Shown: positions 2,777 to 32,303 of the stretch, piece by piece | Layout of the letters: each line of letters opens with the position of its first letter | Numbering within the stretch: the first letter of the stretch is position 1 | DNA from: a virus | Virus record (IMG/VR): IMGVR_UViG_3300037487_001806 | Span: 1 to 32,303 of that record | Direction: 5' to 3' (one strand) | DNA length: 32,303 nt | Translations under genes and position numbers: made by a program | Notes under the pieces: model-generated | The model's input: the letters and a program-made list of their open reading frames with translations, nothing else | Databases searched by the model: none | Told to the model about the DNA's origin: nothing

Positions 2777-3304
2777 TCAGGAGGTGGAGTTGGTGATTAG
2801 GCCCAAATTTGCGAGCTCAGTAAGTAAGTTTTGTAGGGCCGAGTTTCCACCGCGAGAACCTGTTACCGTCGGCTTGGCAATTGGCGTAGTGGCGAAAAAT
2901 CCTATTGACTGGCCGGAGCGCCCGATTTTTACCGACGTTGCCGCAATGGTTCCGATGTTAATAATTGCCGCAGCGTCGAGCGTCCATGACGTGGCCCCGC
3001 CTGTCATCGTGCTTGTCGCCCCGGGTACAATTTGAAGCCCGAGCACGGTGCCGGACGAATAAAACGACCAACTGCCAGCGCGCCATGCTTGAGCCGCGCC
3101 GTTAGAATCGAAAAACAACCTGCCGGTTCCGCTCATCTCTACGGACAGGTCAGTGTTAATCGGAGCGCGCACAACCGACGCAGCGCCGCCCGTGAACCAA
3201 TTTGTCGCCGTACTGCCAATCGCGGCACCGCTACCGACAGCCGCAACCGTCACCTCGCCAGACGCCAGCCGCAACGCACCGCTTTTTGTTTCGTGGATTG
3301 TCAT
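2777..3304 (-). CDS. Fibre-like structural protein
   Basis: This 175-residue protein is rich in Gly, Ser, Thr and Ala with short beta-type repeats (GSGAAIGSTATNWFTGG, GTGRLFFDSNGAAQAW). The C-terminal 55 residues, from SVKIGRSGQSIGFFATTPI through SRGGNSALQNLLTELANLG to the end, look like the closing module often seen in phage head- or tail-fibre proteins: a hydrophobic FF strand, a PTVTGSRG turn and a short amphipathic helix. I infer that it is an appendage or decoration protein exposed on the virion. No enzymatic motif is visible. It is cotranscribed with two other small virion proteins upstream. Confidence 0.6.
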   Translation of the reverse strand: MTIHETKSGALRLASGEVTVAAVGSGAAIGSTATNWFTGGAASVVRAPINTDLSVEMSGTGRLFFDSNGAAQAWRAGSWSFYSSGTVLGLQIVPGATSTMTGGATSWTLDAAAIINIGTIAATSVKIGRSGQSIGFFATTPIAKPTVTGSRGGNSALQNLLTELANLGLITNSTS

Positions 3305-3308
3305 ATTT

Positions 3309-3746
3309 TCACGGCAGGGTGGAGGTCAACAGCCAAATGGTGACGCTGCCCGCGGTTGCAGCGTTGAGCAGCCCGACGGTGCTTACCGCGGACAACAAAA
3401 CCGGCGTCGTCGTGCTGAAGTTTTCGCAAAACAGCGCATGCGACAATTGCCCGACAGTTGCGCCCACGGCTTGGAAAACGTTGAAGGCGCTTGCATATTT
3501 GTCCACTGTTCCGGCGATGCCAACCGACACGGTGTAGCTCGCGATGGTGCCGCCGGCGAATGCGGTGTCGTGCTTTATCGCTACGGCGTGCAGTACAGTT
3601 TTCGCCGGCAACGTTGCGAGCGTGATCGAACTCGTCAACGCGGCGGCTGAAAGGCTTGCAAATGTCGCGGTGTATGGAGTCCACATAAAATCATCAGGTA
3701 AAAAGAACCAAGGCGGCGAGACACAATCGATGGAGAAGGTGATCAT
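3309..3746 (-). CDS. Hypothetical beta-rich virion protein
   Basis: This 145-residue protein is dominated by alternating hydrophobic/Thr-Ser segments (AALTSSITLATLPAKTVLHAVAIKHDTAFAGG, then ASYTVSVGIAG), suggesting a beta-sandwich. It starts at ATG 3744-3746, three bases after the previous stop. A second in-frame ATG at 3684-3686 would give 125 residues, and the more conserved-looking part starts near there. I do not recognise a named family. By position between the ejection-protein block and the fibre-like gene, a small structural role (decoration, fibre base or receptor contact) is likely. Confidence 0.55.
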   Translation of the reverse strand: MITFSIDCVSPPWFFLPDDFMWTPYTATFASLSAAALTSSITLATLPAKTVLHAVAIKHDTAFAGGTIASYTVSVGIAGTVDKYASAFNVFQAVGATVGQLSHALFCENFSTTTPVLLSAVSTVGLLNAATAGSVTIWLLTSTLP

Positions 3747-3749
3747 TGT

Positions 3750-4034
3750 TCACCAGTGCACCAAGAGGCCGGTCGCGGTGGTGCCAACCGCAATGATTTT
3801 CGCGGCCTGGATTTCGCGCGACTGACCGCCGTAAATCGGGACAGTCACGTTCACGCCGTCGCCGCGTTGAACGACGATGACGCCAGCAACGCCCAGGGCC
3901 GCGTTTTGCACGGTGATTCTGATGCAGGTCCGCTTGCGGCCCTTCGGATCGTTTGCCAATAAATCCACGTCGGCGACGATGGCCGGGAACGCAACGTAAT
4001 CCGGCGACGAGTAAAGTTGGCTGGAGGCGCTCAT
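3750..4034 (-). CDS. Small conserved-looking virion protein
   Basis: This 94-residue protein is probably all beta. It has KGRKRTCIRITVQNAALG, then VAGVIVVQRGDGVNVTVPIYGGQSREI, then AAKIIAVGTTATGLLVHW to the end. The alternation of strands with a GGQSREIQAAKI turn is typical of small capsid or appendage jelly-roll proteins, though I cannot name the family. ATG at 4032-4034 overlaps the stop of the 1005-residue gene as ATGA, so the two are likely cotranslated. Confidence 0.6.
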   Translation of the reverse strand: MSASSQLYSSPDYVAFPAIVADVDLLANDPKGRKRTCIRITVQNAALGVAGVIVVQRGDGVNVTVPIYGGQSREIQAAKIIAVGTTATGLLVHW

Positions 4035-7000
4035 TTCAGCTCCGAGGTTAGCGCAATTCCCTCGCTACCGCTTTGATAGTTTTTGGCGATGTTAGGCGGC
4101 GGGCCTCGACGTACCGGTAATAAAGCTCCAGACGGCCCCGCGCTTGCCGGCGGCGGGTAGATGCCTTGGATGGCCCGCATTGATTGAGGCATCAATAGCG
4201 GGTCCGTTGGAATGCCAAGTAACAGCCCGAGCTGCGTGCGCGTTGCGACGTTTGGCGCGCGCCCCTCGGCTTGCAATTTGGCGAGCTTTTGAACGACGCG
4301 CGCTTGCATGTCCGCAAAAGTCGCAGGGTAAACCGTTCGCACGGCGTCAACGGCCTCGGGTGAAAGCTTGCCGGATGCAACGTCGTCAAGAAGGCTTGCG
4401 GGGTTCTCGACGGTGCGAAGGCGCACAAGCCAAGTTTGAATTTGCGCGCGCGTAGGCGGGAGGTCTTGCGCGTAGGGTGTGGGAGCTTTCAAGCCCTTCG
4501 GCAAATTGGCGTTGAGGTAGTCCACCTGGCGCACGGCTGTTTTGACGGCCTCGGTTCGCGCTGTCGGCGCTTGCTCTGCCAGCCACTCGGTTTGTTTTGC
4601 GACCTGTGCCTCAATAGCGGGGAGCTGCTCTGCGAGCTTGCGAACGCTTGCGGCTTTGGCGGCGAACGCTGCCGCAGCAACGCCGGTTGTCGGCGCTCGT
4701 TTAACGGCAACGACGGACGTTTTGCCGATAGCGTCGGCGGCTTTTGTGACGCCCGCGGCAACCGTCCCGGCTTTGCCCTCGGCGATGTTGTCGAGCATCT
4801 CCGCGGCGCGCAAAACCGTGCGCGTCCCGAGCAGCGGTGAGATCCACTTCGGCAAGAACCCAACGCCAGCACCAAGGTCTGCGAGCGTCTTTTGAGCTTT
4901 TGCGATTTGCGCGCCTTCAATGAGCTTTTTTTGCAAGCGCACGTTAAGCGCCGCCAATTCCGTCATCTCTGCGCGGTGGACTGGTAGCTCGCTCAAATTG
5001 CCAAATTCAAGCGCTGCTTTTTGCCATTGCGTTTGATCTGCGATTTGTTCGATTAGCGCTTTGTAAGCAATATTTTCTGTAGGTTTTGTCGTCGCGGTAA
5101 TGTTGGAAAGAATCGATTCAGGGTTTGCGACGCGCCCACTTAGCCACGGGTTTGTGGGGTGCGCCCCGTAACTGGTGCCGTGGTACCACGACTGCATAAC
5201 CATGCCCGACTTGTCAAACGACGCGGCCATCGGCGCGTTCATGCGCCGATTTTGGGCCCCCGCCGCGCCCCATATCGCCTCGTCTTCAAGGCCGGTGCGA
5301 AGGCGCCCGTACACCGGCTCGAGGATGTCGGTTAGCAGCCGCCGGTGCTGCGCGCCCATGTTGGGTAGCCCTTGGAAATTCGACGTTGTTCGGCCCACCG
5401 CGCGCTTTGCGCCGACATCAAGCGCTTTGTACGCGGCCTCGGCTCCTTCAGCGCCGCCAAGTTCCAACGCCGCGCCAACTTCGCGTTGGGCGAGCAACAA
5501 CTCGTGCCTTAGTTGCGGCAATCCGGTTTGCGCGTACTGTTGCTTGCCTTCGAGAATTGCCCTGTCAATGTCGTCAATTGATTGCTGAAGCGCTTCAGTT
5601 GCAAACGCCCGCTGCCCTAGCAAGCTGTCCGCGTCGGACGACACCAGGCCTTTATAGGATGCGATTTTTAGATCGCCGTTGCGAATCAGCGTTGCCGTTT
5701 TTTGTTCAAGCACCCACTTGCGATCTAGGTCCGCTTGGATCGATTCGGGTTGCGCTTTAACGAGCAACCCGCCCTCGGGTTGTTTGCCCGAGACAAGCTC
5801 TGCCAGGCGCTTTTTGCCGTCGAGCGCAGCGGCACGCGTCTTGGGCTCGGCCAGGCGCATCGCGTCGTCGAGCTCGGCCCCCTTTAGGCCAGCCATTCGG
5901 CCTTTCACTTTGAGCAGCGTTTTTGCCACCGGACGGCTGACACCTGGCGGTGGCGTCAGCGAATCGACGAAGGTTGCGGCGGTTACGTCGTCTAGCGTCG
6001 TGGCTGCACTCGCGCCGAGCGGGGCAACTTCGCCCGCCGCAGGCACGGCCTCGAGCACGTCGCCGAGCGGCTCCGCTGCGCTTACCTCGCCAAAGTTTTG
6101 CGCGTGCGCTAGCCGGCGCCTAAGTAGCGGGTCACCGCGAAGCGTAGCGTCGTCGAACGGCGCAACCGCGCCCAACGGTGCCGCTTCAAGCGGTGCGACC
6201 GCGCCGACAGGCACGGCCTCGAGCACGTCGCCAACCGCGCCAACGGGCGCTTTGACGGCCCCGGCTTCAAGCGGCGTTGCCAAGTCGGCAAGCGGTGCCT
6301 CGACGCGTCCTGCGGCCTCCTGTGCTGCCGCCGGTGCGCCCCGGCGAGCGACTTTGCCAAGCAACCCAGCGCCGGCCCCGATGCCGCCGCCAAGTCCAAA
6401 CCCGAGCGCGCCACCAGTTAGGCCCGCCGCGGCAATCTGGCCAATGCGTTCGCCGTTGAGCTGGTTGTCAAGCGCGAGTTGCCCCGCTTCGCGTCCAGCG
6501 CCTTGTAACGCCCCTTCGGCGGCGCCCTGCACCCCGAATCGCAACGCGGTGCGCCCGATGCCTTGGGTGGCCCCCTCGGCGGCGGCAAGGCCTAGCCCCG
6601 CGACCGCGCGCTCGCCCGCTCGCATCGCAAGCGCCGCTGGAGCTTGAGCCGCGATGCGAGCGGCGAGGCTCCCGATGATTGGAGCCGCGCCAGCCCCGCC
6701 CGCTGGCGCGGTCGCGATGGCCGAGGCGATGATGGGCGCGACAGCACCGACGACCTCGGAGCCGATTGACAGCCCTGGCTCGAGCTCTTGGTACGCTCGC
6801 AACCGCTCCCCGAGCCCGAGTTGCGAGGCGAGAAGGTCCGATCCGCTGAGTGTCGCGCCGCGTAATGCGCCGCCGACCACGGCCCCGACCTTGGCCTCGA
6901 TGCCGCCGTATTTTTCGCCGAGTTCAGCTTGCGCGACCTCTTGCGCCGTTGGGACGCCGTAGCCCTCGTCCTTGGCCGCGGCGAGGTCGGATTCCTCGAC

Positions 7001-23909: not shown

Positions 23910-24133
23910 CGGCGCGTGTGCTCCTCGTGTGACTCAGCCCAACGGGTGTGCTCGCGGACAGCTCGCTCGCAGTTCGAACACCGCGAGTCAAGCGGGCTTT
24001 CGTCGTTGAGCTGGCCGGGGTGCGGTTTCAAACATAGCGTCCGGCGCATGTGCGCGGAATCATAGCAATGCGAGCGCGAAAGTGCGTCGTCTGAGTGCCC
24101 CCACCACGCCAATCTGTCAAGAACCTTCGTCAT
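23906..24133 (-). CDS. Small Cys/His-rich protein
   Basis: This 75-residue protein has Cys at CYDSAH and in LCLKPHPGQ, and a CSNCER pair, with many His between. A small zinc finger of the CxxC/H type is plausible. ATG 24131-24133 overlaps the DnaC-like gene's stop as ATGA, and its own stop overlaps the next start as ATGA, so it is cotranslated with the loader and the HTH gene. The family is not recognised. Confidence 0.55.
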   Translation of the reverse strand: MTKVLDRLAWWGHSDDALSRSHCYDSAHMRRTLCLKPHPGQLNDESPLDSRCSNCERAVREHTRWAESHEEHTRR

Positions 24134-24864
24134 CTCCCGTTAACCCCGCTGCCAAATAAGTCAACAATCTCCGCGCCGTGCATCAGCCGGCGAACCACCC
24201 CGGCCCCGTATCGCTCGGCAATCGCCACCCGCGACAGACCCGACGTTGCGATGGTCGTCAGGCCCGCGTCGTAGCGCCTCCCCAGGATAGCTGCGACGAC
24301 AGGCGACTGGCCCACTTGCGAAACGTGACCGCCCGCGGTGCCCAGTTCGTCAATCACCAAGATGTTAGCGGACTCAGCCGCAAAAAACAGCCCGTCCTTG
24401 CGCGCGGATTGCTCGCGAACAAGCGATTCCTCCGACGCCCACACCAGGGTAGGCGGCGAGCCAAAAGCCACACCTGACGCCATCGCCGCCAACCGCGCCG
24501 CTTTTGACGCGGCAGACAGCGCCGCGAACACGCTCGAGCTTTTGCCGCAGCCACTCGGACCGATAACGAGCTTCGCTTGGCCAACGACGAACGCCCCGTC
24601 GGCAAACGTAAACGGCTTCCAGGGTTCAAGCGCCGCGCGAGTCCGAGGCCAAAGGCGCGAAGTCCACGCTTCGTTAGCCCAGTTCGCCCACTCCCACGCG
24701 GGAAGTCCACCAGCGGTAGCCTTGCGCCACTCCGCGAGCTTGGCCCCCCGAGCATCGCGTTCTCGTTCGTCGGCTCGATCCGGTTGCCCGCTGTCGAGCT
24801 GCAACCCGCGGATAAAGCCTGCGAAATCAAAACCGCCGCCGTAATCGTCCTCGAAACCGTTCAC
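24130..24864 (-). CDS. DnaC/IstB-like AAA+ ATPase, probable helicase loader
   Basis: This 244-residue protein has Walker A GPSGCGKSS (102-110), Walker B ILVIDELG (168-175), a sensor-like strand TTIATSGL (203-210) and a late arginine cluster RYGAGVVRRL (218-227) suited to an arginine finger. These are the marks of helicase-loading DnaC-type ATPases. I chose GTG 24862-24864 because it overlaps the initiator's stop as GTGA and has a perfect GGGAGG ribosome site; an upstream ATG at 24879 would start inside that site. It would load the host replicative helicase at the phage origin, because no helicase gene is present. The initiator is directly upstream. Confidence 0.8.
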   Translation of the reverse strand: MNGFEDDYGGGFDFAGFIRGLQLDSGQPDRADERERDARGAKLAEWRKATAGGLPAWEWANWANEAWTSRLWPRTRAALEPWKPFTFADGAFVVGQAKLVIGPSGCGKSSSVFAALSAASKAARLAAMASGVAFGSPPTLVWASEESLVREQSARKDGLFFAAESANILVIDELGTAGGHVSQVGQSPVVAAILGRRYDAGLTTIATSGLSRVAIAERYGAGVVRRLMHGAEIVDLFGSGVNGR

Positions 24865-25802
24865 TTTGCATCCTCCCACGCGAGTCGCCCCGCGGTTATG
24901 TTGGTCACGAATCGTTTCAGATCCGGATCGCCTTGAACCAGGTGCTTGCTCTTGCCATTGCCCCGCGGCTTCTGCGGTTCGAGTGCGTCCTTAAACTTCC
25001 AGCCCAAGAGGCGCCGCGTCTCGCGCTCCGTCGCCCCGTCCGCGAGCTCGAGCGCCGCCGCTGCGATGGCCTTGCCGATCTTGGCCGCGTCGAGCTGCAA
25101 CGCAAGCGGCCCCAAGTGGTCTAGCAGCGCCTCGGCTACGTCCCCTCCCAAGTTCTTAAACCGCGACGACGCCGCAAGCGCCGTGGCGATCTCCGCTGCC
25201 CGAGGATCCCGAGCAATCGCAACCGGGGGTGCCGCCGCCTCTCGCGCGCCCGCGCGTCTGCTGCTCCCTCTCAGCTCTGCTTCTGCTTCTGAACTGTGCT
25301 TCTGAGATCTGAGATCTGCTTCTGCTTGTGTGACGTCACGGTCTTTTGGCGTGACGTCACGCGTGACGGACTGTGACGCGGCTCGCTTGCGATTGCGGTA
25401 ATCAGCCGCTCGAGTCGCGCTGGTGTGGTCCTTCTCGCGGTACCGGTCAAAGTTCAAGACGATGTACCCGCCGCTGATTCTGGCAAGCCGGCGCCCGTCG
25501 AAATCCTGCGATCTCGACTCGGGCTCAGGCGCCGACATCTGCTCCAACGACGCCAACCCCGCCTCGGCCTCGACCACGGCCTGATGAACGATGCCGATCC
25601 CGCTCGCCTCGATTAACCCGTACCAGCCTGCCGGTATCGTCCAGCCCGTTGGGGTCAGCGAACGCACCTCAAGTTGCGGCGTGTCCTCCGCGAGCTTGTG
25701 CGGCCTCGCCATAAGCAGCGCGGTCACGAACACCGACCGCGCCGCTGGTTGATGCCATAAGGTTGAATGCAGGATCCCGCAGTCCAGCTTTACGAATGCC
25801 AT
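24861..25802 (-). CDS. Phage replication initiator (O-like/replisome organiser)
   Basis: This 313-residue protein starts MAFVKLDCGILHSTLWHQP and continues PTGWTIPAGWYGLIEASG. This N-terminal DNA-binding module of about 130 residues resembles replication proteins of the helix-turn-helix replisome-organiser type, with VLNFDRYREKDHTSATRAADYRNRKRA closing it. Residues 140-190 are a flexible, repetitive linker; the DNA encoding it holds iteron-like repeats (25330-25378), as in lambdoid O genes. The C-terminal third is helical and may bind the loader or helicase. It lies just upstream of the DnaC-like gene, the usual O-P order. ATG 25800-25802 is four bases downstream of the XRE regulator's stop. 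Confidence 0.75.
   Translation of the reverse strand: MAFVKLDCGILHSTLWHQPAARSVFVTALLMARPHKLAEDTPQLEVRSLTPTGWTIPAGWYGLIEASGIGIVHQAVVEAEAGLASLEQMSAPEPESRSQDFDGRRLARISGGYIVLNFDRYREKDHTSATRAADYRNRKRAASQSVTRDVTPKDRDVTQAEADLRSQKHSSEAEAELRGSSRRAGAREAAAPPVAIARDPRAAEIATALAASSRFKNLGGDVAEALLDHLGPLALQLDAAKIGKAIAAAALELADGATERETRRLLGWKFKDALEPQKPRGNGKSKHLVQGDPDLKRFVTNITAGRLAWEDAK
25330..25378. repeat. Iteron-like cluster inside the replication initiator gene (candidate origin)
   Basis: Two perfect palindromes GTGACGTCAC (25330-25339 and 25351-25360, 21 bases apart) are followed by two GTGACG half-sites at 25363 and 25373. The spacings are near whole helical turns (21, 12, 10). They lie in the linker-coding part of the initiator, beside a low-complexity stretch with recurring CTTCTG (25275-25327). 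Repeats inside the initiator gene are the classic phage origin layout, so this is the best candidate for the replication origin. Confidence 0.6.
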
Positions 25803-28716: not shown

Positions 28717-28919
28717 GCCCGCAACGCGAGCTGGACGCGCCCTTGATTCGCTTCGGCCGCGCGGTCATCGACCTGCAGCGCGTGCCCCTCATCCCGTACG
28801 CCGAGCGCGACGAAGAAAGCATCGCGCTTTTGTGCGACGCGACGACAGAGTGGGCCGCGTCACTGGCCGTGGTGACCGCCGTGGCCGTCGAGCGCGCACT
28901 CGCGGGAGGTCGCGAGTGA
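28713..28919 (+). CDS. Hypothetical small protein before the exonuclease-annealing fusion
   Basis: This 68-residue protein has a first half with RFGRAVIDLQRVPLIPYAE and a second, Ala/Val-rich helix (TEWAASLAVVTAVAVERALAGG). It couples by ATGA to the upstream stop and by GTGA (28916-28919) to the large recombination gene. The family is unknown. Confidence 0.6.
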   Translation: MSPQRELDAPLIRFGRAVIDLQRVPLIPYAERDEESIALLCDATTEWAASLAVVTAVAVERALAGGRE

Positions 28920-30391
28920 GCACGCTAATTGTTGATTTCAGCGCCGTCTTTTGGCGCCAATGGCACGCGAGCGGGAACGAGGCCGTGAATTTTGCGCGTC
29001 AACGCACCGTCGGGCAGATTCGCGCCCACGCCGTCGAAGCCCGCGGATTTCCTTTGGCCCCGCGCGCGGGGGCCGTCATCGCTCTTGACGCCGGCAACAA
29101 CTGGCGGCGCAAACTGTGGAGCGGCTACAAAGCGACGCGCCCCGAAAAAGACGCGCTCGCGCTCGAGCAGTTGCGTCTCTGCGAGCAGGAGCTGCGCGCG
29201 GAAGGCTACCCGCTCGTGCGCCTTGACGGGTACGAAGCCGACGACGTGATCGCGTCGCTCGTGGCGTCGATTGAAGGCCACAAGACAATCTTGACGGCTG
29301 ATAAAGACCTCCTCCAGCTCCTCGGGCCGGAGTGCGACATGTACCACCTCGCCCGCGATAAATACGTATTTGACCTCGACGTGAAAAGCGAGCTTGGCAT
29401 TGAGCCAAGCCAGGTTGCCGAATGGTTGGCACTCGCGGGGGACGCGAGCGATAACGTTCCCGGGGTCGTCGGGGTCGGCCCCAAGGGGGCCGCGAAATTG
29501 CTGGCAAAACACGGCGACCTCGCCGGGATTTACGCCGCGCTCAACACGGAAGGGGCGTTCACACCCGCGCTCGACAAAAACCTACGCGACGCTGCGAGCC
29601 GCGCCGACTGCCCAATCTTGATGAGCCTCGAGCTCGTCAAGCTCACCCCGAAACGCGCGATGGCGTGCATCACTCCCGAATTGCTCGCGGCAATTAAAGC
29701 ACCGCGAATACCGAAACCCAACACCGCAACCGAAACAGAAGAAAACATGATTCAAGAACACGAATTTGAACCCGAGGCCGCGGCGCTGCCAGAGCCACCT
29801 AAAACCCTGCCGCACCAACACGAGGTGCCAATCATCGATCGCGCCCCCGAAACGCCGGCAGAGCGCGCCCTGGTCGTGCTACCGCGCGACTGGACGCGCC
29901 AGCTCGAGCCAATCGATTCGCGCTCAGCCTACGGCTTGGCTAAAGTCGTCGTCGCGTCGCGGATGTTTCCCGCGTATGGCGCTCCCGAGTCCGCGCTGTT
30001 GGTTCTCATGGCGGGCCGCGAATTCGGCCTCGGCGCTATGGCATCGCTCAGGTCATTCCACATCATCGAAGGCAAGCCCACAATGAGCGCGCAGGCCATG
30101 ATGGCGCGGTGTTTGGAGCATCCGAGCTGCGCGGAGTTCCGTGTGGTGCGGAGCGAGTGCAGTAACGAGCTTGCGACTGTGAGCGTGCGCCGCGTCGGCT
30201 GGACTACGCCCGAAATCTACACGTGGAGCGCCGACGATGCGAAGCGTGCGGGCCTTGCTGGCCGGGGCAACTGGTCGAAGTACCCGCGCGAGATGCTAAT
30301 CAATCGCTGCATCGCCGAGGCCGCGCGATTCACTTGGCCCGAGGTTATGGCGGGTGTGTACGCGCCCGAAGAATTTGGCGGTGCGTCGTGA
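28916..30391 (+). CDS. Fusion of FEN-type 5'-3' exonuclease and RecT-like single-strand annealing protein
   Basis: One unbroken 491-residue frame holds two recombination activities. Residues 1-265 are a 5'-3' exonuclease of the PolA-N/T5 D15 class: D7 (LIVDFS), D58 (IALDAG), YKATRPEK (71-78), EADDVIASL (107-115), TADKDLLQLL (127-136) and GDASDNVPGVVGVGPKGAAKLL (175-196, with a helix-hairpin-helix) supply the metal-binding acids and DNA-binding loop. Residues 266-325 are a low-complexity linker. Residues 326-491 resemble RecT-like annealing proteins: LAKVVVASRMF, LVLMAGREFGLGAMASLRSFHIIEGKPTMSA, DAKRAGLAG and NWSKYPREMLINRC. The start is GTG 28916 with GGGAGG upstream. An in-frame ATG at 29747 with AGAAGA could make the annealing part alone. 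It would degrade 5' ends and anneal the exposed strand, with the SSB nearby. Confidence 0.85.
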   Translation: MSTLIVDFSAVFWRQWHASGNEAVNFARQRTVGQIRAHAVEARGFPLAPRAGAVIALDAGNNWRRKLWSGYKATRPEKDALALEQLRLCEQELRAEGYPLVRLDGYEADDVIASLVASIEGHKTILTADKDLLQLLGPECDMYHLARDKYVFDLDVKSELGIEPSQVAEWLALAGDASDNVPGVVGVGPKGAAKLLAKHGDLAGIYAALNTEGAFTPALDKNLRDAASRADCPILMSLELVKLTPKRAMACITPELLAAIKAPRIPKPNTATETEENMIQEHEFEPEAAALPEPPKTLPHQHEVPIIDRAPETPAERALVVLPRDWTRQLEPIDSRSAYGLAKVVVASRMFPAYGAPESALLVLMAGREFGLGAMASLRSFHIIEGKPTMSAQAMMARCLEHPSCAEFRVVRSECSNELATVSVRRVGWTTPEIYTWSADDAKRAGLAGRGNWSKYPREMLINRCIAEAARFTWPEVMAGVYAPEEFGGAS

Positions 30392-30465
30392 GTGCATTGA
30401 AACCAAAACCGAAACCAAGGCCTCGGCCAAAACCGCTCTACAACCAAGGACAGAACCATGAATAA
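30388..30465 (+). CDS. 25-residue Lys/Arg-Pro peptide
   Basis: A tiny frame, started by GTG 30388 that overlaps the fusion gene's stop as GTGA and ending in TAA inside the next gene's start region (ATG 30458). The peptide is [19 protein letters not shown] plus six residues. It has strict K-P/R-P alternation and an LYN segment, and is strongly basic. The dipeptide pattern and PRPRP core resemble proline-rich peptides that enter the ribosome tunnel, but a translational coupling leader for the next gene is equally likely. It is too short for a confident coding call. Confidence 0.4.
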
Positions 30466-30805
30466 AAGCCAGCTTGAAGCGGTGCTTAAAGCCCACGCGC
30501 TGTGGCTTTGTTTCAAACAAGGTTGTGCCGCGGACTTGAGCTTTGCAGACTTGCGTGGCGCGGACTTGATTGGCGCAGACTTACGCAACGCTAATTTGAG
30601 CTGCGCGGACTTACGCCGCGCTGATTTGAGCCTTGCTAACTTGGACGGGGCTAACTTGGACGTGGCTAACTTGGACAGGGCTAACCTTTATGGCACAACC
30701 CTTGACAACACATGCCACGAAAAGTCTGAATTTGATTACACAAAAGGAGGCAGCGAGTATGTTTGTCTAAAGCTCACTGCCCTATGCTTAGATGAGGACA
30801 CATGA
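30458..30805 (+). CDS. Pentapeptide-repeat protein
   Basis: This 115-residue protein has a helix at 1-24, then about 12 consecutive A(D/N)LxX pentapeptides (residues 25-84: [60 protein letters not shown]), and a Cys-rich tail. The repeats fold as a right-handed square beta-helix. The array is far shorter than that of the gyrase-protecting Qnr/MfpA group, so a DNA-mimic role is not established. ATG 30458 sits within the end of the small peptide's frame, and the stop overlaps the SSB start as ATGA. Many phages carry such proteins with unknown role. Confidence 0.8.
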
Positions 30806-31227
30806 ACAAAACCACACTATTTGGGCGGCTCGGGCGTGATCCCGAGTTGAAACAAGCGGGCAACACAAGCTTGCTCAAATTCTCAATCGCGACGACGGAG
30901 CGCATCAAGAAAGGCGACGTGTGGAGCGACCACACCGAGTGGCATAACGTCATCATCTTCGGCAAGCGCGGCGAGGCGCTGGCGAAACACCTGACGAAAG
31001 GCTCGCAAGTTGTCGTCGAAGGCTCGCTCAGGACGTCCTCGTGGGAGAAGGACGGCCAGAAACACTACAAGACCGAAATCAGCGCGAGCGACGTCCACCT
31101 CGTGAGCGCGCCCCGCGAGCAGGGCCAGGGACAGGGCCGAGGGCAGTTGCGGAGCTTGCCGCTGCCCGGGGTGTCTATCGTCGGTGGTGGTGACGATGGC
31201 TTTGGCGGCGACGACATTCCGTTTTGA
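30802..31227 (+). CDS. ssb: Single-stranded DNA-binding protein
   Basis: This 141-residue protein starts [20 protein letters not shown], continues [15 protein letters not shown], then [20 protein letters not shown] and [23 protein letters not shown]. These are the OB-fold strands of bacterial SSBs. A Gly/Gln-rich linker leads to the acidic tip GGDDIPF, which binds host repair and replication proteins. It protects single strands at the fork and after exonuclease action, so it fits beside the exonuclease-annealing fusion. ATG 30802 overlaps the pentapeptide gene's stop as ATGA. Confidence 0.92.
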
Positions 31228-31735: not shown

Positions 31736-32303
31736 CCGCGCACCAGCCGCAGGAATAGCTCCCAAGGCCAGCGCACGTCCCCGACGCCTCCCGGGTCAAC
31801 GTGCGTTGATTTCTTGAACGCCGCCCCAACTGCCGCGTGGCTCGTGATGCCGCGTTTGCCGGCGAGAAGGCCGGCGGCGTCCACGCGCTCGAGTGGGATA
31901 TCCCAGCGCTTGCAGATTGCGCGCACAAGCTCGGCTGCGCGCACAACGACTCGGAGGCCATCCTGCGGCCCGTCACCATCGCGAGTCCAGTCCGTCTTGT
32001 GGGCTTGCCCGACGAGTTCGATTTGGATGCCGGTGGCGTTCGCGCCCGGTGCGGCCCATGCGACGTCGTGCTCGATGACGCACTGGAAGGTTTTCTCAGG
32101 CCCGACGACGTAGTGGGCGCTCGCTTGCGGCGCGTCTTGCCCCGCGAACCACAAGGCGACGTTTCGCGCGGTGCCGACGGCGATGGGATTTTCCGTGCTG
32201 TGCAGCACTACCCAATCGACCTTGGCGCGGTTTGATTTTGTGTAGTTTTTGGCCAGGATTGTGGCCGACTTCGCTCGTTCCGCAGGCTTCGGTGATGGTG
32301 GGG
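31732..32303 (-). CDS. Endolysin amidase (3' part; 5' end continues in the left copy)
   Basis: This holds the catalytic Amidase_2/PGRP-type domain (residues about 216-377) of the gene begun at 689. Visible motifs are WVVLHSTE (H222), SAHYVVG (H251, Y252), IQIELVG, ITSHAAVG (H343) and KKSTHVDPGG (K352, D357). In the zinc amidases the first and last His and a Cys/Asp are metal ligands and the Tyr/Lys help catalysis, so the active site looks complete. The right end of the window stops within the gene because the contig was cut here. The stop overlaps the stop of the plus-strand gene by four bases (CTAA). Confidence 0.85.
   Translation of the reverse strand, partial: PPSPKPAERAKSATILAKNYTKSNRAKVDWVVLHSTENPIAVGTARNVALWFAGQDAPQASAHYVVGPEKTFQCVIEHDVAWAAPGANATGIQIELVGQAHKTDWTRDGDGPQDGLRVVVRAAELVRAICKRWDIPLERVDAAGLLAGKRGITSHAAVGAAFKKSTHVDPGGVGDVRWPWELFLRLVRG
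32177..32303. repeat. Direct terminal repeat, right copy (circular closure)
   Basis: Identical to bases 1-127. Merging the two copies restores the endolysin reading frame and gives a closed genome of 32,176 bp. Confidence 0.95.

Follow-up and report, generated by a model that had tools for sequence, protein, structure and literature searches.

The window, that is, the whole 32,303-nucleotide stretch of viral DNA analyzed here, encodes in one open frame a 491-residue polypeptide which, as judged and confirmed from its sequence, is a fusion of a PolI/FEN-type 5′ nuclease, a disordered linker and a RecT/Redbeta-type annealing core (Table 1). We consider it probable that this gene provides the phage with an exonuclease and annealing protein recombinase in a single polypeptide, together with a probable extra supply of free annealer. 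What appears to be new is that exonuclease and annealer are joined in one chain, the nuclease being of a different class and the annealer truncated. The lost annealer tail, the Mgm101-type module of contig L095 and the probable internal start in the linker go beyond an earlier note made on this DNA.

Organization of the fusion gene

The earlier note had read one continuous frame carrying nuclease motifs followed by a RecT module, and the translation bears this out, with the motifs EADD, TADKD and GDASDN and no stop over its whole length. The GTG start agrees with the start of close homologues (MSTLIVDF). Across the fused family, the linker between the domains measures approximately 60 to 180 residues. 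Structure prediction, which the note had recommended, was performed with AlphaFold2 on an alignment of 57 rows and returned two confident domains separated by a linker of pLDDT below 50 (mean pLDDT 88.4; 381 of 491 residues at or above 90; pTM 0.64), with PDB matches for residues 1-275.

Table 1. Features of the window discussed in the text, with their evidence
Feature	Position	Strand	Evidence
GGGAGGT, Shine-Dalgarno-like, ahead of the GTG of the fusion	28904..28910	+	sequence reading
Exonuclease-annealer fusion gene, 491 aa	28916..30391	+	single frame, no internal stop
5′-3′ exonuclease N-terminal (resolvase-like) domain, residues 4-146	28925..29353	+	PF02739, E 3.3e-22; D7, D58, E107, D109, D110, D129, D131
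5′-3′ exonuclease C-terminal SAM-fold part, residues 162-243	29399..29644	+	PF01367, E 1.1e-17; D176, D179
Pro/Glu-rich linker, residues 274-327, predicted disordered	29735..29896	+	pLDDT <50 at 274-288, 297-304 and 306-327
Putative shorter product of 214 aa, consisting of the annealing protein and starting at an internal ATG	29747..30391	+	Met column in common, open mRNA, Shine-Dalgarno-like bases among relatives
RecT/Redbeta-type annealing core, residues 326-488, with just three residues left to the protein end	29891..30379	+	phrog_561, Redbeta 7ujl and lambda Bet matches
Pentapeptide-repeat protein, between fusion and SSB	30458..30805	+	PF00805, E 1.4e-18
Single-strand DNA binding protein (SSB), downstream of fusion	30802..31227	+	phrog_44, E 5.2e-39
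DnaC-like helicase loader	24130-24879	-	phrog_3277, E 6.1e-10

A functionless fusion, created by an assembly error or a lost stop codon, has a negligible probability. The frame is unbroken in the window and in at least 69 further contigs, some of them at only 25-30% identity and each an open frame, and the fused annealers lie together on one side of a well-supported branch (see below). Because the same one-frame architecture recurs in so many contigs, chance and assembly error are excluded, as is the frameshift or stop between the domains that the note had named as a refuting result.

The nuclease half

Both nuclease domains, PF02739 and PF01367, score above their Pfam cut-offs in the window protein, and the nuclease half matches the exonuclease family phrog_107 (E 1.1e-29). 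When superposed on the predicted model, the PDB matches to this half are ExoIX, the M. smegmatis FEN, the T5 FEN and Taq, with a Foldseek E of 1.4e-16 for ExoIX and a VIA Z of 26.3 to T5 FEN 1exn_A (rmsd 2.1 over 245 residues). These Pfam and fold matches agree with the earlier proposal that the nuclease is of a class other than lambda Exo or RecE. The nine acidic residues of the two nuclease domains (Table 1) align with those of Taq polymerase, and we take them to be the metal-binding carboxylates of the FEN/PolI family. None of them varies among the 57 aligned fusions, three of the nine being pre-selected by the search pattern of the contig scan, which required EADD or MAGREFG; K72 and R75 are likewise identical in all 57 rows. 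The N-terminal half is thus predicted to be an active FEN/PolI-type 5′ nuclease with intact active-site residues.

The DNA polymerase A domain (PF00476) was found in none of seven records, comprising the window and six relatives that may be incomplete, while 10 of 14 control genomes were positive. Hence the nuclease lacks the polymerase that normally accompanies it, and a remnant of DNA polymerase I is ruled out as the origin of the gene. In a further contig (L101:2497-4293), a nuclease domain lies within an open frame of 599 codons, with sequence lacking a family match on both sides.

The annealing half and its lost C-terminal tail

The annealing core is recognized by several profiles of the RecT/Redbeta families. 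The RecT-like annealing protein family phrog_561 matches residues 342-488 with E 5.3e-23 to 3.1e-22, Redbeta matches by profile with E 4.4e-5 (7ujl) and, in a separate comparison, 3e-4, and lambda Bet aligns with the fused core in hhalign over 75 columns (E 5.4e-7, probability 92.3). The match of Pfam RecT (PF03837) to residues 422-487 of the window protein (E 0.0017 and 18.3 bits with the whole protein, 5.3e-4 and 20 bits with the C-terminal part alone) is below the Pfam cut-off of 24 bits, and the same profile is matched by 41 of 52 fused members at E ≤0.01. Some of the BFVD structure matches are named RecT, with the aligned range not given, and the PDB fold matches, which cover residues 1-275, include no RecT. 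By sequence the C-terminal half matches an annealing family; a match to a non-annealing family would have counted against the original reading. From its family, this RecT/Redbeta-type core would be expected to anneal strands.

The fused annealers differ from the others in their length. Only 0 to 14 residues (median 3) follow the core in the 62 complete fused proteins, against 44 to 337 in 21 stand-alone relatives, one of which (L118) is cut. The region beyond the core that is typical of lambda Bet and of the stand-alone relatives is missing in all 62. According to one report, the C-terminal region of lambda Bet takes part in the contact with Exo (PMC5052646). A covalent link between nuclease and annealer would make a contact of this type dispensable.

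Distribution of the fused family

The earlier note had suggested a search for the same fusion elsewhere. A first contig scan returned six contigs, each related to the query along most of its length, and a second returned 14, of which L008-L015 are fused and the other six have just the annealing half. In a scan with a wider alignment, at least 537 stretches, out of the 599 listed, encoded some relative and the best 80 were taken. Nuclease and annealer share one frame in 69 of these 80, giving at least 69 fused contigs, two of which (L030 and L089) run out within the annealing domain. That leaves 11: L090, L093 and L096, where the contig stops short of the annealer; L095, which carries another annealer; and L097-L103, whose nuclease is accompanied by no annealing-profile match. 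Judged by the two profiles, nuclease and annealer occur as separate genes in none of the fetched loci.

With the window, 70 fused contigs were available, of which 57 entered the main alignment (A4) and 13 were left out, either as copies or near-copies (L002, L044, L062, L064, L067 and L087), as cut (L006 and L089) or for a late start of the tblastn match (L060, L070, L080, L084 and L085). A second alignment (A5) holds 52 of the 57 rows, without L004, L005, L012, L057 and L094. Across the 57 rows of A4, identity to the window protein ranges from 67% down to 27%.

Searches with four fused proteins against 50,697 phage records, and with that of the window against 72,556 plasmid records, gave no place at which 80% of the query was covered. 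Among 794 genomes of two bacterial phyla, the RecT annealing profile (E ≤1e-12) matched seven (4 of 398 and 3 of 396), none with a nuclease-profile match in the 3.5 kb fetched. The profile of the whole fusion matched 385 of 398 genomes through its nuclease half, for the most part in frames with the length of a DNA polymerase I gene (about 900-1000 codons), and is uninformative on fusions; one scan of genome contigs gave three loci, in which only the nuclease half was matched.

The best BFVD match to the fusion model is A0A6J5MUB0, a UniProt entry of 462 amino acids from an uncultured Caudovirales phage described as "PIN_53EXO domain containing protein". It aligns over 498 columns with 32% identity (E 5.5e-38) and a whole-chain rmsd of 21, as two differently placed domains would give. 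The model comparison suggests that this protein, named for its nuclease part alone, is probably a deposited fusion of the same family. The titles and abstract starts of the literature matches listed contain no description of a nuclease-annealer fusion, which may nevertheless be mentioned in the annealing-protein surveys of 2002 or 2010. The main text of PMC8093625 contains neither "fusion" nor "fused".

Phylogeny and exchange of annealing modules

In a tree of the annealers built by a quick method, a branch with support 99 separates the 62 fused proteins from 21 stand-alone RecTs. In a similar quick tree of 77 nucleases, a branch with support 95 sets 65 fused proteins, along with L090, L093, L095 and L096, apart from eight outsiders. 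The label "fused" needs five changes on this tree, at least three of them forced by starred branches. Of the four non-fused intruders in the fused clade, three are the contigs cut before the annealer and the fourth is L095. The simplest reading of both trees would be a single origin of the fusion, followed by exchange.

In the L095 frame at 2833-4395, the same kind of nuclease is joined to an Mgm101-type annealer (PF06420, E 4.1e-28) in the place of RecT; this C-terminal half also matches Rad52, below the cut-off. The L095 nuclease is nested in the fused clade as the sister of L061 (support 100), with 72% DNA identity over the nuclease part and similar neighboring stretches on both sides. This exchange is represented by one contig, as a scan for close relatives with L095 as query returned L095 alone and no second Mgm101-type fusion. 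Because L095 has swapped the RecT core for another annealing family, annealing appears to be the property that is kept.

This bears on a different function, in which the protein is a replication nuclease that removes RNA primers or flaps, the RecT core merely tethering it to single-stranded DNA and annealing not being its main job. FEN/PolI-type nucleases do such work in cells, the polymerase A domain is missing from the seven records described above, and 21 of the 26 columns that are invariant over the 57 rows fall in the nuclease half, some of them favored by the search pattern. However, the remaining five invariant columns are in the annealing core, and among the seven closest relatives it is this core that has changed less (81-100% identical to that of the window, versus 47-94% for the nuclease). 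Together with the replacement seen in L095, this makes a replication nuclease unlikely.

Exchange may also have occurred within the RecT-type modules. The window and L002 show no mismatch at fusion residues 323-453 (about 390 bases) and several per cent divergence elsewhere in the gene, which suggests a recent exchange or conversion of the annealing module between them. A recent swap of the annealing domain was also considered for L004 and L005, which are 99% identical in protein, and is ruled out by a DNA identity of 83% with only 45% identity at fourfold sites. Since the DNA has diverged and the two trees place L005 differently, this pair reflects strong conservation and an older exchange.

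A candidate internal start in the linker

The linker is variable apart from a methionine that recurs approximately 20-35 residues past the nuclease domain. Among 53 rows below 80% identity, it occupies one alignment column in 29, and 41 have a methionine at 15-45 residues. In the same rows, a Shine-Dalgarno match precedes 17 of 97 linker ATGs; among linker codons that are not starts the count is 138 of 4700, and for ATGs within the nuclease and annealing domains it is 6 of 514. Linker GTG codons give 8 of 182 and TTG codons 0 of 28. Folding, codon and shuffle tests were restricted to the 29 rows with the methionine in the shared column and, because codons and related rows are not independent, their P values and those of the other internal-start tests are guides.

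The mRNA at the internal site is less folded than the rest of the linker by 5.2 kcal/mol and less folded than its own synonymous shuffles by 2.1 kcal/mol (P 9e-5, 29 rows). Three control regions, in the downstream linker, the nuclease and the annealer, are no less folded than their own synonymous shuffles. In the downstream-linker control, the folding P is 0.66 with a G+C shift of -0.013 (P 0.03), compared with a G+C shift of -0.036 at the internal site. In the window itself, no linker position beyond seven codons from the site at 29747 is as open as that site. Relatives such as L043 and L049 have a strong Shine-Dalgarno at their internal site.

A single product from the gene is a less probable explanation, in which the methionine and the open, purine-rich stretch are by-products of an acidic peptide or of the needs of co-translational folding. 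Strict 5-mer Shine-Dalgarno matches show a weak excess over synonymous shuffles (12 against 8.1; 75 of 2000 shuffles reach this number), as do strict matches taken with a further motif (13 against 9.2; 92 of 2000). Because the shuffles already supply 8.1 of the 12, the strict signal is largely accounted for. A strict match precedes the linker ATG in only 17 of 53 rows, the shared column holds methionine in just 29 of 53, and the internal ATG of the window has a weak Shine-Dalgarno, just a weak purine run. On the other hand, the excess is clearer for looser 4-mer matches (21 against 14.6; 6 of 2000 shuffles), the glutamate codon at -4 is GAG rather than GAA in 16 of 17 cases (11.3 expected, standard deviation 1.9), and the site is less folded than its shuffles where the controls are not. 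An internal start is therefore a likely feature of the fused family on these statistics, and a linker methionine with Shine-Dalgarno-like bases and unusually open mRNA suggests that genes of this family probably yield both the fusion and a free annealer. The window gene may do likewise, its free annealer having an estimated mass of about 24 kDa.

Genome context

The record is that of a phage, with terminase, portal, head and internal virion protein families. An exact direct repeat of 127 bases (1-127 and 32177-32303) and a contig, L002, that spans the junction suggest that the record is complete at about 32.2 kb and circular or terminally redundant, though listed as linear. Downstream of the fusion are genes for a pentapeptide-repeat protein and an SSB. 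An SSB like that of the window is found near only 7 of 69 fused loci (single-sequence phmmer, flanks of up to 3 kb), hence its linkage is a trait of the near relatives of the window rather than of the family as tested. In L015, a protein that reads by eye like pentapeptide repeats precedes the fusion (5528-5998). The window also encodes a DnaC-like helicase loader, in a phage without a polymerase A domain.

Proposed mechanism

In the mechanism that we propose, the FEN/PolI-type nuclease would remove the 5′ strand at a DNA end, as its intact active-site residues suggest, and the tethered RecT-type core would bind the exposed 3′ strand and pair it with its complement, as expected from its family. 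The tether would stand in for the noncovalent contact of lambda Beta with Exo, made partly by the C-terminal domain that the fused annealer lacks, and could thereby couple resection to annealing. The start in the linker would also make the annealing domain alone, in extra copies, and a few fusion molecules could then start a nucleoprotein filament that free annealers extend. Such a protein may serve phage recombination or concatemer formation.

A fuller reading, on which we are evenly divided, is that of a widespread phage recombinase in which one gene would supply both the fusion, seeding annealing in cis, and free annealer as the bulk of the filament. Its annealing module would be exchangeable, as for the Mgm101-type one, implying that selection keeps the one-gene layout and not a given annealer. 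With its FEN-type nuclease and an annealer lacking the tail, this naturally single-chain protein makes the hand-over of the strand testable, and it might offer a compact tool that depends less on contacts between partners. If the second start is real, the gene would also illustrate a way for a fused recombinase to deliver annealer in excess of nuclease.

Comparison with known systems

The lambda Red system (Exo and Beta) and the Rac pair RecE and RecT likewise combine a 5′-3′ exonuclease with an annealer of the RecT/Redbeta family. They are, however, encoded by separate genes, whereas the fusion is one polypeptide in the window and in at least 69 contigs. Furthermore, lambda Exo and RecE are nucleases of another class than FEN/PolI, the type that the fusion nuclease matches by Pfam and by fold. 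Lambda Bet also continues for 86 residues past its aligned part (175 of 261 residues), whereas no fused annealer continues beyond 14.

Stand-alone phage RecT-like proteins (phrog_561; L016-L021 and L113-L135) have the annealing core in common with the fusion but, unlike it, lack a nuclease-profile match in their frame and extend 44-337 residues past the core in 21 proteins. Conversely, the T5 D15 FEN, E. coli ExoIX (Xni) and the 5′ nuclease domain of PolI share the fold and active-site residues of the N-terminal half. To our knowledge, none of the three has an annealing domain, PolI having a polymerase instead. Mgm101/Rad52-type annealers belong to a different annealing family from the RecT core and are found on the same kind of nuclease in L095 only.

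The earlier note had called the pairing new or at least uncommon. This holds for the fusion as such, set against the separate genes of lambda Exo/Bet and RecE/RecT, and less so for the combination of activities, as T7 gp6 and gp2.5 pair a FEN-like exonuclease with an annealing protein in the form of separate proteins.
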